From Candidatus Saccharimonadota bacterium (GTDB taxonomy: Bacteria; Patescibacteriota; Saccharimonadia; Saccharimonadales; AQU-01), in contig JAHBAU020000018.1 of assembly GCA_018499905.2 (NCBI GenBank), forward strand, positions 1 through 36,460: a stretch of DNA of 36,460 nucleotides, read 5' to 3'. The stretch's first letter is position 1. The number at the start of each line of letters is the position of its first letter. Of this stretch, positions 1 to 27,801 are shown piece by piece. The notes under the pieces were generated by a model. That model saw only the letters and a list, made by a program, of their open reading frames with translations, ran no database searches and was not told the DNA's origin. The translations under genes were made by a program, and so were the position numbers.

Positions 1-19
1 AGATGTGTATAAGAGACAG
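1..19 (+). other. Nextera/Tn5 mosaic-end adapter (artefact)
   Basis: The first 19 bases are exactly the Tn5 mosaic-end sequence used in Nextera libraries. They are not genomic. An in-frame ATG inside the adapter creates the false N-terminus MCIRDR on the rplO fragment. Confidence 0.97.
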
Positions 20-21027: not shown

Positions 21028-22524
21028 GTGGATGACCAAACCACCGGCGCATTACTAGCAATTGACGATGGGTATGGTACGCTCGCGGACGCAGATGTCC
21101 AGGGTCTGGCAGAACTCTTAGCTGCTGAAGGTTATGAGGTGGTCATTTGGGATTATCAAGCAGAGGATATGCCTACTGGTTATTTTGTAGCACGTTATGA
21201 GGCTGGCCAGTATGGACCTTTGTCGTCAACCAACCCCTATATTGCAGTACTGCTTTACATTGTTGATTACTTTGATGCGGCGCAGGACATCGCTGCCCAC
21301 GTTGCCGAAGGTTCGGTTGTAATAGCGCTGAATTTTGCGACCAGTGTCGTGGCGCGGGAGGCGGTAAAGTTTTCATCGCAACCAGAGCGGGCAGCCTTTT
21401 ACTTATGGGCCGATCAGATGCTGTTTGATACGTTTGGGCTAAAGCGCCCGCATAAAACAGTGCTCATTAACGGTGACGCCGCTGAAGTTTCAGTCAAAGC
21501 CCGCGTGTTTACTGAAATGAGCGGTGTTTTCTCACGGGATTACAAAGTTATTGATGCTTACCGTAACGGACACCGTTTGGCGCAAGACGATATCGATCAT
21601 TTGATTATGGAGTCGGTGCGGGGTGTACTGCCAGAGCCACCGTTGTTTGAACCTGCAGTCAAAGAACAAGAGACTGCTTCTGTGCCATTGCCAGAGCTAC
21701 CAGATTCGCTTAGCGAAGAGTATCAGCGAGGGGTTGCTGACTTGCTGCATATGCGAACTACAGTTGTTGTGCAGCTCAAAGAAGCTGGCGCCTCAGAAGA
21801 AGAGTGGATATATGTCCAGGCTCTACTGACACCGTTGGCGCTGCAGCCAATGGAGCCTATGAATGCGCTAAGCAAAGCAGCTGAAGGAATTACGGCTGGC
21901 TACAGCCAAGATCATACCGCCGTTAAACTTGTTGAGCATTGGCCCAAAAACGAATACGATCTTTTGCCAACGCTGTTATTTCCGCACAGTTCGTTATCTG
22001 CAGCCGAACTGACTGCTCGGCTTGACAAGCTGCCTTTCGAGCAAAAGGATGCACTGCTACAGACACTGCTGTCAGAGGCAATGCAATCTGGCACACTATC
22101 TGAACTTCAAATCTCGTATACTTTTGAGCTCCTGACTAGTTATGAAGCTATGCGTACTATCCAAGGTCTCGTACCAGATGCAGTTATATTGGTTCAGGCT
22201 CTAACGCCTCGTTACGAGTATGAGATGCCTGAGAGTATTGAACAGTACAATTTAACCGATGCGTATCTTGAATGTTTTGATAAAAGCTTTGAGCTATTTA
22301 GTCGTCTTGAGTCATCTGCCCAGGATTCAATTGCCCCCAATGCGTGTCTTAGGGGTCACAAATTACGGTGGAGACTCGTGCTTGACGGTGCCAATCAAAA
22401 CACGATCTTCGGCTATCATAATAGCGAGCAAGAGGTCGGACAGGTTGTTGCTAAGATGTTTAGTAAACTTGAACAATACCACCCGTTATTACAGGCCTTG
22501 CTAGTGGCTCGACACTTATCATAA
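21028..22524 (+). CDS. Degenerate thymidylate-kinase-like protein with C-terminal extension
   Basis: The first 150 residues follow the thymidylate-kinase pattern: LLAIDDGYGTLA where Tmk has EGIDGSGKST, GYEVVIWDYQAEDMPTGYFV, NPYIAVLLYIVDYFDA, and ALNFATSVVAREA where Tmk has DRY-SS. The P-loop GK and the catalytic DR are both lost, so kinase activity is very unlikely. The remaining 350 residues are mostly helical; the last 60, with LRGHKLRWRLVLDGA and EQEVGQVVAKMFSKL, faintly recall the FAD-dependent thymidylate synthase ThyX without its RHR motif. That part is a guess. The length is 498 residues; GTG start after AAGGTG. Confidence 0.6.
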   Translation: MDDQTTGALLAIDDGYGTLADADVQGLAELLAAEGYEVVIWDYQAEDMPTGYFVARYEAGQYGPLSSTNPYIAVLLYIVDYFDAAQDIAAHVAEGSVVIALNFATSVVAREAVKFSSQPERAAFYLWADQMLFDTFGLKRPHKTVLINGDAAEVSVKARVFTEMSGVFSRDYKVIDAYRNGHRLAQDDIDHLIMESVRGVLPEPPLFEPAVKEQETASVPLPELPDSLSEEYQRGVADLLHMRTTVVVQLKEAGASEEEWIYVQALLTPLALQPMEPMNALSKAAEGITAGYSQDHTAVKLVEHWPKNEYDLLPTLLFPHSSLSAAELTARLDKLPFEQKDALLQTLLSEAMQSGTLSELQISYTFELLTSYEAMRTIQGLVPDAVILVQALTPRYEYEMPESIEQYNLTDAYLECFDKSFELFSRLESSAQDSIAPNACLRGHKLRWRLVLDGANQNTIFGYHNSEQEVGQVVAKMFSKLEQYHPLLQALLVARHLS

Positions 22525-22977: not shown

Positions 22978-23006
22978 AGCATAACAGTAATAATTGGTAT
23001 TGTCAA
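22978..23006 (-). promoter_or_regulatory. Consensus promoter, minus strand
   Basis: On the minus strand TTGACA (23006-23001), 17-nt spacer and TATGCT (22983-22978). The predicted start near 22971 is about 10 nt before the orphan ATG at 22960. Confidence 0.75.
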
Positions 23007-23024
23007 TAGGTCGTCTCAAATAAG

Positions 23025-23052
23025 TTGACAATAATATCCAGGGGCGTATTCT
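23025..23052 (+). promoter_or_regulatory. Consensus promoter for the second leader-peptide operon
   Basis: TTGACA (23025-23030), 16-nt spacer, TATTCT (23047-23052). The predicted start near 23059 is about 3 nt before the leader ATG at 23062. It is back to back with the minus-strand promoter. Confidence 0.75.
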
Positions 23053-23061
23053 AGTTTTTGT

Positions 23062-23139
23062 ATGGCATTATCCAAAAACATTAGCCTCATTCTCGTGAAC
23101 CTCTCAGAAGGCTGTGTTCTTAATGGGTTGAAGCCGTAA
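23062..23139 (+). CDS. Putative 25-residue attenuator leader peptide
   Basis: The reading frame begins MALSKNISLILVNLSEGC and ends VLNGLKP-TAA. It has six Leu codons and a Leu/Ile/Val run at codons 7-14. The stop codon (23137-23139) lies 2 nt after the antiterminator strand, so a terminating ribosome would cover that strand. Ending on Pro before the stop recalls stalling peptides such as TnaC, which also ends in Pro; this is only an analogy. No Shine-Dalgarno; initiation would be leaderless. Confidence 0.6.
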   Translation: MALSKNISLILVNLSEGCVLNGLKP

Positions 23140-23198
23140 AGCACCGAACACACGCCAGTTACAAAGAAAGGCTTCGACCCTAAAATCGAAGTCTTTTT
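23125..23198 (+). promoter_or_regulatory. Second transcription attenuator
   Basis: The strand 23125-23135 (GGGTTGAAGCC) can pair along 11 bp, with one G-U, with 23170-23180 (GGCTTCGACCC). That second strand is also the left arm of the terminator: 23167-23177 pairs with 23186-23196 in an 11-bp stem (one G-U), loop of 8, then a T run. The two structures exclude each other. Two further stems, AGCCT/AGGCT (23083-23087 with 23109-23113) and TGTGTTC/GAACACA (23113-23119 with 23146-23152), could modulate the choice. Confidence 0.75.
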
Positions 23199-23216
23199 AT
23201 TTAAAGGGGGATCGCT

Positions 23217-23468
23217 ATGAAGGAAATTTTTTGGAGAGAACAGCGTGGGGCAACATGCCATGTCTTCGATGGCAGTGAACCAGATGGCCTAACGGCAGAT
23301 GGACAAGCCCAGCTGACGATTTGGACTGCTCAAGAATGTCCGGGAGTTATGGTCGTCATTGAAGACGCCTTGCCGAATGCTACTGATGTGGGTTGGGAGT
23401 ATTTCACGCAGCCCGTTCAGATTACTATGCCCGGTGTTGAACTGGGAGCAGTGACATGGCAGGGATAA
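23217..23468 (+). CDS. Orphan protein, first gene of the attenuated operon
   Basis: I do not recognise this 83-residue protein. It is acidic, Trp-containing (four Trp) and beta-prone, with two Cys that are far apart (AGATCHVFDG-like ATCHVFDG and AQECPGVMVV). No signal peptide or membrane segment. AAAGGGGG lies 6 nt before the ATG, a strong ribosome-binding site, just after the terminator. It overlaps the next gene by 13 nt. Confidence 0.7.
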   Translation: MKEIFWREQRGATCHVFDGSEPDGLTADGQAQLTIWTAQECPGVMVVIEDALPNATDVGWEYFTQPVQITMPGVELGAVTWQG

Positions 23469-24348: not shown

Positions 24349-24378
24349 TTGCACAAGCCAGATCGTATCTGTTATAAT
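24349..24378 (+). promoter_or_regulatory. rplJ-rplL promoter
   Basis: TTGCAC (24349-24354), 18-nt spacer, TATAAT (24373-24378), beginning right after the stop of the previous gene. Start predicted near 24385. Confidence 0.75.
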
Positions 24379-24385
24379 AAACTAG

Positions 24386-24482
24386 TTACCGAAGACAGTG
24401 ACGTTCGCCAGCTGGCGGATTAAGAAGGTCACCGAGGCAAACAACAAACTATTTGTTTTTGTTTCTATAGGTGTGAAAGACT
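24386..24482 (+). promoter_or_regulatory. L10-type autoregulatory leader
   Basis: A structured region at about 24395-24445, with GTGAC/GTCAC closing CGCC-AGCT-GGCG and an unpaired AAGAA stretch, lies upstream of rplJ. Its position and shape match ribosomal L10 leaders, which bind the L10-L12 complex through a kink-turn. The family assignment is from location and layout, not an alignment. Confidence 0.6.
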
Positions 24483-24526
24483 GTCTTCCTTGTATCAATT
24501 CAGATACAGTCAGGAAGACTTTTTTA
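24483..24526 (+). terminator. Attenuator terminator in the rplJ leader
   Basis: GTCTTCCT (24483-24490) pairs with AGGAAGAC (24512-24519), and inside it TGTATC pairs with GATACA. A run of T follows. It lies about 65 nt before rplJ. In Firmicutes the L10 leader also works through a terminator, so partial termination by L10 binding is a reasonable model. Confidence 0.8.
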
Positions 24527-24589
24527 TGCCTTAGGGTAACAAACCACCGTCGGTCGATCGGTGTGTAGCACTAAACAAAGGAGAGATAC

Positions 24590-25123
24590 ATGGCTCAATC
24601 GAGAACCAAGAAAACAGAAGTCATTGACTCAGTCAGTGATCTGTTATCGAGCTCCAAATTAACAGTTGTCGCCAAGTATGAGGGGACAACAGTGAAGGCT
24701 TTGCAGGAACTGCGTCGCGAAGCTAAAAAGAATGGCACGAAAGTCAATGTCATTAAAAACCGCTTGGTCATCAAAGCTTTGGAGAAGGCTGGCAAAGAAG
24801 GTGTTGACACCTCTTCACTGAACGGCATGCTTTTGTATGCTTTCAATGCGGAAGATGAAGTAGCACCAGCTCAAGCCCTGAACACCTTTTTCAAAACCAA
24901 TCCTGGCATGACATTTGTTGGCGCTATTACAGCTGACAACAAATTTATCGGCCCGGATGATGTAAAAGACCTAGCTAACTTGCCAAGCAAAGATCAGCTT
25001 CGCGCGATGTTGGTTGGCACAATTGCCGCACCAATCAGTGGCTTTGTCAATGTTATGGCTGGTAATGTTCGTGGAGTGTTGAATGTATTAAATGCAAGAG
25101 CAGAAGCTCTTGGAGAGAATTAA
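24590..25123 (+). CDS. rplJ: 50S ribosomal protein L10
   Basis: L10 anchors the L7/L12 dimers to the ribosomal stalk. The N-terminal rRNA-binding domain shows [25 protein letters not shown] (part: [20 protein letters not shown]) and [11 protein letters not shown], and the protein ends in the helix that carries L12 ([20 protein letters not shown]). The length of 177 residues is normal. CAAAGGAGAG precedes the ATG by 6 nt. rplL follows after 10 nt. Confidence 0.96.
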
Positions 25124-26257: not shown

Positions 26258-26307
26258 TATACTTGCTTTATACAAAAGCGCTTTTGCTATACGGTAAAAG
26301 GCGCTTT
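26258..26307 (+). promoter_or_regulatory. dnaX promoter and leader hairpin
   Basis: GG followed by TATACT (26258-26263) without clear -35. AAAGCGC (26275-26281) pairs with GCGCTTT (26301-26307) in the short leader, followed by ATTAAT. It could be a weak attenuator or an mRNA-stabilising hairpin. Confidence 0.45.
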
Positions 26308-26322
26308 ATTAATCGAGGGTAG

Positions 26323-27801
26323 GTGAGTGTGAGTCAAGCGTTTTACCGTAAATACCGGTCAAAGAATCTGTCTGAAGTTGTCGGGCAGGATCATATTACC
26401 TCCACGCTGTCACAAGCGGTCGCTGCCGGCAATATTAGCCATGCCTATTTATTCACTGGGCCGCGAGGTGTAGGTAAGACATCGGTTGCTCGCATTCTCG
26501 CTCACGACATCAACAAATTGCCCTATGACGAAGAAAAGCCGCACATCGACATTATTGAGATTGATGCCGCCAGTAATCGCCGAATTGATGAGATTCGCGA
26601 CATACGCGATAAAGTGCATATCGCCCCCGCCAGCGCCACCTACAAAGTCTACATTATTGATGAGGTCCATATGCTCACCAAGGAGGCCTTTAATGCCCTG
26701 TTGAAAACACTCGAAGAGCCACCGGCTCACGTGGTGTTCATTCTTGCTACGACCGAAGCGCATAAGCTGCCAGAGACAATCATTAGCCGTACGCAGCGAT
26801 ATAACTTTAAGCCTATAGATGATGTAGCGGCGGCTGGGCATCTGGCAAAAATTGCCAAGCAAGAAGGCATAGAAGCTTCTAAAGAGGCACTTGAGCTCAT
26901 CGCTGCCTATGGCAAGGGCAGCTTCCGCGATAGCATTAGTCTGCTTGATCAATTGGCTAGTAGTGGACAAGCAGTTGAGCTCGAAACGGTGCGAGCTTTG
27001 CTGGGTGTACCCGCAGGTACCGCCGTATCGCTTATTCTTGAGACTATGCTGGCCGGCCGTTCTGATCAACTACTTACCCAACTACAAGACTTGCGAGCCA
27101 GTGGCATTGCGCCGGCAACAATCGCTGAAGAAGTAGCCAAGCAGCTCAGGGACAGGATGGTACAAGGCAGTTTGTCCGGCAGTGAGGTTAATTTGGCGCT
27201 GCTAGATAAGCTCATAGAAGTTCCTGCCAAATCACGACCTTATGATTATCTGGAACTGGCGCTACTTTCGGTTGCATTAGCTCGCCAAAGTCCAGCAGAC
27301 ACACCCGCTGAAGTGCCCAAGCCGCCTCATGTTGAAGCGCCTGCTGTCCAGCCGGACAATCAAATGAGCCCACCAGCCGAGCTTACTAAGCCAGAGGTAA
27401 AGCCTGCTCAGCCAGTGATAGTGCCTAAACCTTCCCCAAACGTCAGCGTAAAGTCTCAATTGGATGACAAGGTTTGGAATGCGGTGCTTACAGATATCAA
27501 GAAAAACTACGCCACCATTTACGGTATTATGCGAATGTCACGGCCACGGCTGGAAGCGGGTGAATTGCTGCTTGAGTTTGGATTTCCGTTTCACCATAAG
27601 CAAATTAATCAGGCAGCTAACAGGCAGAAGATTGCGTCGATTATCGCGACGCACCTAGGTGACGGGATAACCATTACAACCGCAGTTAATAGCGAATTGA
27701 ATGCACCAGATGTTGTCTTGGACTCACAGCCTGAGATTGCTCCCGATAGTATTGGCAGCATAACCAATATATTTGGCGGCGGCGAAGTGTTAGAATCCTA
27801 G
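26323..27801 (+). CDS. dnaX: DNA polymerase III gamma/tau subunit, zinc module missing
   Basis: ATPase motor of the clamp loader. It starts QAFYRKYRSKNLSEVVGQDH, has Walker A GPRGVGKTS, Walker B DEVHML, NALLKTLEEPPAHVVFILAT and the arginine-finger SRTQ. Between Walker A and IEIDAASNRRIDEIRD, most DnaX proteins have a four-Cys zinc module of about 20 residues; here the chain runs LAHDINKLPYDEEKPHIDI with no cysteines. The Pro-rich linker (about residues 325-385) and a C-terminal domain follow. The length is 492. GTG start with GAGGG upstream; a second GTG at 26329 is an alternative. Confidence 0.95.
   Translation: MSVSQAFYRKYRSKNLSEVVGQDHITSTLSQAVAAGNISHAYLFTGPRGVGKTSVARILAHDINKLPYDEEKPHIDIIEIDAASNRRIDEIRDIRDKVHIAPASATYKVYIIDEVHMLTKEAFNALLKTLEEPPAHVVFILATTEAHKLPETIISRTQRYNFKPIDDVAAAGHLAKIAKQEGIEASKEALELIAAYGKGSFRDSISLLDQLASSGQAVELETVRALLGVPAGTAVSLILETMLAGRSDQLLTQLQDLRASGIAPATIAEEVAKQLRDRMVQGSLSGSEVNLALLDKLIEVPAKSRPYDYLELALLSVALARQSPADTPAEVPKPPHVEAPAVQPDNQMSPPAELTKPEVKPAQPVIVPKPSPNVSVKSQLDDKVWNAVLTDIKKNYATIYGIMRMSRPRLEAGELLLEFGFPFHHKQINQAANRQKIASIIATHLGDGITITTAVNSELNAPDVVLDSQPEIAPDSIGSITNIFGGGEVLES

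Follow-up and report, generated by a model that had tools for sequence, protein, structure and literature searches.

Transcription attenuators that read leucine, isoleucine and valine codons in a short leader peptide are of a textbook kind. The LEU element of Actinobacteria joins a leader peptide with a run of Leu codons to a pseudoknot upstream of leuA; in its base stem the Leu codons are paired to the leuA Shine-Dalgarno sequence, and no terminator is described for it (Seliverstov et al. 2005, PMC1262725). Control by transcription attenuation is reported for the candidate leuS attenuators of Streptomyces and the ilvB leader peptides of Corynebacterium (PMC1262725, PMC10272879, PMC11857589). 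For Patescibacteria, the literature searched yielded no amino-acid attenuator. To our knowledge, gene regulation in these bacteria is almost unstudied. Here we analysed a 36,460-nt stretch of a Candidatus Saccharimonadota genome (hereafter the window), in which one leader is, with high probability in our judgement, a ribosome-mediated transcription attenuator that senses charged branched-chain tRNA, that of Leu first and then those of Ile and Val.

The promoter, 25-codon ORF, 11-bp antiterminator and competing terminator listed by the first-pass annotation of this leader are all where it placed them (Table 1), while a further stem, P1, and the probable leaderless start had been overlooked. Antiterminator and terminator are mutually exclusive because nucleotides 23170-23177 are common to both, and P1 encloses the antiterminator 5' strand, therefore P1 and the antiterminator together make a pseudoknot. 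A competitor helix equally strong against the terminator arm arose in one of 2000 dinucleotide shuffles of the leader, and a scan of the whole window found the 23025-23216 leader to be its sole plus-strand terminator/competitor pair. On the minus strand, a further terminator with a 10-nt competing strand lies at 26307-26350. Predicted energies favour the antiterminator hairpin (-19.3 kcal/mol) over the terminator (-14.4 kcal/mol), so an untranslated leader ORF would mean read-through. The start codon stands 9 nt past the -10 box and is not preceded by a Shine-Dalgarno sequence, hence the leader mRNA is probably leaderless. Among relatives of the element, TTGAC or TTGTC occurs 24-50 nt before the start codon in 46 of 63 (control, 6.6%); the window -35 box begins 37 nt before its start codon, which is the median of these 46, and leaderless initiation appears likely.

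Table 1. Features of the leader and of the genes behind it, in window coordinates
Feature	Position	Strand	Evidence or remark
Promoter, TTGACA, 16-nt spacer, TATTCT	23025-23030 (TTGACA), 23047-23052 (TATTCT)	+	Sequence
Leader peptide ORF, 25 codons, MALSKNISLILVNLSEGCVLNGLKP-stop	ATG 23062 to TAA 23139	+	ORF table
Control codons, Ile-Ser-Leu-Ile-Leu-Val-Asn-Leu	23080-23103	+	Leu/Ile/Val enrichment across 64 elements
Stem P1, GGCTGTGTTC with GAACACACGCC, one bulged C	23110-23119 with 23146-23156	+	Covariation
Antiterminator, GGGTTGAAGCC with GGCTTCGACCC	23125-23135 with 23170-23180	+	11 consecutive pairs, one G-U
Intrinsic terminator, stem and U-run	23165-23198; stem 23167-23177/23186-23196	+	Hairpin kept in relatives
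Ribosome-binding site, AAAGGGGG	23203-23210	+	7 nt before ATG 23217 of the putative first regulated gene
Orphan gene, 83 aa, HVFDGSEP motif, putative first regulated gene	23217-23468	+	No Pfam, PHROGs or PADLOC match
Orphan gene, 85 aa	23456-23713	+	ORF table
Orphan gene, 211 aa	23713-24348	+	No relative in searches
Ribosomal protein L10 leader RF00557, separate element	24371-24533	+	41.9 bits, E 1.1e-5, just below gathering score 44
rplJ	24590-25123	+	PF00466

A blastn search of 393 class genomes with the 162-nt window leader as bait gave two matches standing high among many chance matches, both upstream of rplJ and in genomes that are distant but belong to the order of the window genome, probably Saccharimonadales (L005 in genome G211 and L012 in genome G079). 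The antiterminator pairs are retained in both through compensating changes (GGAGTGAAGCC/GGCTTCACTC and GGATCGGAGC/GCTTCGATCC), as is the pairing of P1 (GGTTGTATTGC/GCAATACAACC). Scanning the regions upstream of rplJ revealed four better examples, and a covariance model built from these four, with the window left out, matched 71 of the 393 genomes at E <= 0.1, most of them far more strongly. Under this model the window copy reached 25.5 bits (E 0.014 for its genome) and scores as a divergent member of the family. The working set comprised 64 elements from 58 genomes (60 stretches retrieved). An exact-pattern search of 11 genomes gave no match, and outside the order we obtained weak matches alone (E 2e-4 or worse), the best of which, inspected by eye, were without the structure. 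Judged by sequence comparison, this RNA is well supported as a family. Rfam returned a single chance-level match to another family at 23000-23260 (E 1.7), with neither Leu_leader RF00512 nor a T-box, and in the relatives nothing except L10_leader; the attenuator itself gave no match to RF00557. In the open literature searched we found no description of the RNA family. The first-pass annotation knew of no element of this sort in the literature, which stands for the RNA family, given the Rfam and literature results, but not for the principle, since Leu/Ile/Val attenuators are classic.

Covariation was assessed in an alignment of 65 rows, one of them a weak extra match, fitted to P1 only. Paired cells amounted to 96.9% in P1 and 94.2% in the antiterminator helix (95.5% together), and changes on both sides were seen in 16 of 19 pairs (P1 8/9, antiterminator 8/10). 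None of 500 shuffles reached any of five covariation measures, and sliding the alignment by one column reduced pairing to 42%. Both pairings are thus retained by compensating changes, the check that had been proposed with the first-pass reading. As the P1 and antiterminator helices cross, the antiterminator is an H-type pseudoknot, its linker A-rich, and both helices are probably present in one molecule. A terminator-like hairpin with a U-run follows 59 of the 64 elements (control, 5%). The conserved nucleotides are those of the paired strands, and the loop that separates these differs among copies both in length and in sequence. The P1 5' strand (GGGCTGTGCTTC) is more conserved in sequence than pairing alone requires, a surplus that attenuation does not explain. 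In one element (L153) the two strands of P1 are altogether different in sequence (GGCTCTTTTG/CAAAAGAGCC) and still pair. G199 has a second attenuator-like match (L103:212-316, minus strand). It runs opposite to the ilvA copy, and in it GGTTGGAGTC and GGACTCCAACC pair over a terminator.

The ORF through P1 is open in 64 of 64 elements. In the ten codons before P1, Leu, Ile and Val make up 52.5% in frame vs 17% and 7% in the other frames, with totals over the 64 ORFs of 259 Leu, 112 Ile and 55 Val codons. As the frame had been chosen by its Leu/Ile/Val content, stop codons are the fairer test, and these number 0/64 in frame vs 38/64 and 22/64 in the other two frames. Outside the paired strands, 57 of 59 elements have Leu at codon -4, encoded variously by CTC, CTA, CTT and CTG, and 48 of 59 have it at codon -2; the synonymous variation of Leu codons in an open frame is what the first-pass annotation would have had relatives display. 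The window codons before P1 include Ile-Leu-Ile-Leu-Val-Leu and lie one codon off the consensus position. In 58 of 60 elements the antiterminator strand is followed by the stop codon at a distance of 0-18 nt; in the window this distance is 1 nt.

These properties bear on a riboswitch, in which P1, the internal hairpin and the pseudoknot would bind a small ligand such as a branched-chain amino acid, a ketoacid or ppGpp, the ORF being incidental. A compact covarying pseudoknot with one sequence-conserved strand would suit such an RNA, and elsewhere branched-chain genes are targets of riboswitches (PMC8632094, for ppGpp). We nevertheless consider a riboswitch very improbable, given an ORF that is never interrupted, is enriched in Leu/Ile/Val and varies synonymously at Leu codons outside the pairs, and given that the conserved nucleotides fall in paired strands around a variable loop.

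The usual form of the peptide is ...LLLxLxGLCFxMVEA-stop, with GLCF encoded by the P1 5' strand and MVEA by the antiterminator 5' strand. Conservation of GLCF and MVEA says little about the peptide because the same codons are paired RNA strands. In the window, where the spacer from P1 to the antiterminator strand is shorter by one nucleotide, the reading VEA becomes GLKP with the stop directly after. An earlier idea of ours, that the frame relative to P1 differs between groups, was wrong; the P1 frame is constant, and the window departs from the others by that single nucleotide of the spacer. A subgroup of three elements (L128, L152 and L153, family f8) and the window carry Gly-Cys-Val/Ile or variants over P1, not Gly-Leu-Cys-Phe. 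Sensing of Cys through the conserved Cys codon was rejected, as Tyr, Arg and Asp variants occur and no Cys genes lie behind the element.

Strong conservation of GLCF and VEA as peptide in most copies could also be read as the mark of a drug- or metabolite-dependent arrest peptide, in which Gly-Leu-Cys-Phe...Val-Glu-Ala would stall the ribosome via the exit tunnel and not through an empty tRNA. To this reading we give hardly any weight: the paired strands account for the conservation, Cys is swapped for the residues just named, the window and other copies have lost Val-Glu-Ala through a shift of frame, and the downstream genes are of branched-chain metabolism, not resistance. The window's own Lys-Pro-stop, one of three signals offered by the first-pass annotation, is not the signal: most relatives read that RNA strand in another frame, as Val-Glu-Ala-stop, so that conservation at the peptide end is limited to the RNA strand and to where the stop lies. 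The branched-chain aminoacyl-tRNA, another of the three, is upheld by the genes that follow the element in relatives.

These genes are leuA-like, ilvB, ridA, ilvA or leuS in 26 of 64 copies, with rplJ downstream of 38 of 64 and both rplJ and branched-chain genes in 12 copies; rplJ follows with branched-chain genes absent in 26 of 64, across several families. The downstream genes were identified as leuA-like, ilvB (704 bits), ilvA (667-700 bits), ilvN, RidA and LeuRS (946 bits). Linkage was examined in a panel of 80 genomes, 45 with the element and 35 without. The leuA family was present in 9 of the 45 element genomes vs 0 of the 35 others, in all nine directly behind the element. Biosynthetic ilvA occurred in 12 of the 80 genomes and had the element ahead of it in 11 of these 12, one of which (G066) had escaped the first model and came to light with the second, once the ilvA search had drawn attention to it. 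Three of the four ilvB genes in the panel also lie behind the element. A recurrent gene order is element, small ORF, ridA, ilvA, rplJ, and it seems to be the ancestral one. In a close relative (rplJ 68% identical), ilvA is found at the same place before rplJ, preceded by a different, Ile-rich leader peptide (MTQQGIISIIIMPPQARR-stop) and its own terminator (L162:2070-2240), to which the models give no match.

Of the 83 small ORFs that follow the element, 15 contain the motif [YF][ADS]G-x-[EP] vs 2.7 expected, for example at L074:614-787, in L099 and at window 23217-23468. The motif-bearing small proteins are otherwise unrelated, and the motif was also seen within the N-terminal part of the ilvA-like proteins of L113 and L122. 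We discarded the idea that a Leu/Ile/Val-poor product is an adaptation, as the gap between small ORFs (19.5% Leu+Ile+Val) and large ones (22.2%) is too small.

The leader-peptide attenuator of the first-pass annotation is supported by this comparison. Relatives preserve the ORF with its Leu/Ile/Val codons, P1 and the antiterminator helix, the terminator and the placing of the stop codon, and they show the link to branched-chain genes; from this we infer the direction of control, its signal and its target genes. Transcription would begin at or beside the start codon, and the 25-codon leader peptide would be translated. When Leu-, Ile- or Val-tRNA is short, the ribosome would stall on the control codons, P1 and the antiterminator would fold ahead of it as a pseudoknot that sequesters the terminator 5' arm, and RNA polymerase would read through into the downstream genes. 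We estimate that the ribosome just touches P1 when codon -4 occupies its A site, so a stall there would leave the whole pseudoknot free. Under good supply, the ribosome would reach the stop codon and cover the antiterminator 5' strand, the terminator would form and transcription would end.

The window genome (1.09 Mb, 91% complete) departs from many relatives in what lies behind its element, namely orphan genes and not branched-chain genes. Searches of this 91%-complete genome found no leuA, ilvB or ilvA, and the orphan proteins had no relatives among the 393 class genomes, contigs from GTDB, viral contigs or plasmids, and no match in Pfam, PHROGs or PADLOC. Upstream of the element, the gene at window 21028-22524 is homologous to L012:2313-3047 of G079 (32% identity across 197 aa), so synteny extends to both sides of the locus, though the intervening orphan genes differ. 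The genes served in the window are presumably the orphans and perhaps, via read-through, rplJL; rplL follows rplJ. At its edge (window 1-19) the contig begins with AGATGTGTATAAGAGACAG, which we take to be the Tn5/Nextera mosaic end, i.e. untrimmed adapter.

With leuA, ilvB and ilvA not found in its genome, the apparent ancestral order carrying ridA and ilvA, and a score that is, together with that of L133, the lowest in the family, the window copy might be a relic, an attenuator decaying without function after ilvA and ridA were lost from the locus. This seems unlikely. None of its parts is damaged, be it the promoter, the ORF, P1, the antiterminator, the terminator or the stop position, and their changes compensate one another, a good ribosome-binding site and three ORFs follow, and the 26 copies before rplJ that are without branched-chain genes, in several families, imply that retention is common. 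The window copy is likely to be a functional attenuator, and the simplest history is a lineage that lost the branched-chain pathway and retained the sensor before the remaining small genes.

The frequent presence of rplJ downstream (38 of 64 copies) raises the question of whether control serves rplJL more than the orphan genes, such that ribosome stalk supply tracks amino-acid supply. We think this slightly less likely still than decay, because rplJ is preceded by a promoter-like site and an L10 leader of its own, one third of copies are elsewhere, before leuA or ilvB, and the direction would be odd, with starvation raising a ribosomal protein. In several relatives the L10 leader strands CCAAAGAC/GTCTTTGG compete with a terminator too.

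Returning to an attenuator that reads branched-chain tRNA, we see perhaps an even chance that it belongs to a Patescibacteria-specific family, distinguished by a leaderless peptide and an antiterminator that forms a pseudoknot, which was inherited from branched-chain synthesis operons, outlived them, and now reports starvation to fast-evolving orphan genes beside the ribosomal stalk operon in bacteria that must obtain their amino acids from elsewhere. The family offers a testable regulon of leuA-like, ilvB, ridA, ilvA and leuS genes and a set of unnamed small proteins, and with it a starting point for learning what amino-acid-dependent epibiotic bacteria turn on when branched-chain amino acids are scarce. 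Orphan genes under the element are candidates for uptake or host-interaction functions.

Among described systems, the L10 leader RF00557 shares the stretch upstream of rplJ with the element, but occupies a separate site and has no leader peptide. The enterobacterial leu/ilv attenuators (leuL, ilvL, the ilvB leader; Leu_leader RF00512) are alike in their Leu/Ile/Val leader peptide, their mutually exclusive antiterminator and intrinsic terminator, and the leuA/ilv genes behind them, which here are found in relatives. They differ in that the leader peptide here has no Shine-Dalgarno sequence and the window genes are orphans. The classical enterobacterial switch also works through a 1:2 hairpin that excludes 2:3, whereas here the antiterminator 5' strand lies in the P1 loop and is compatible with P1 as a pseudoknot. 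The attenuators of Streptomyces leuS and Corynebacterium ilvB likewise have Leu or Ile/Val/Leu leader peptides, and also stand before leuS or ilvB; unlike the present family they belong to another phylum, with no common RNA sequence seen and no pseudoknot reported for the terminator switch. Nearest in design is the actinobacterial LEU element, with its Leu-run leader peptide and pseudoknot upstream of leuA, although the present element does not have its defining base stem: the Leu codons here are upstream of P1 and outside the structure, covariation is seen in P1 and in the helix that competes with the terminator, and the pseudoknot has a terminator as its rival. As a Leu/Ile/Val attenuator the element is of a known kind; the RNA family and the topology of its antiterminator are new.
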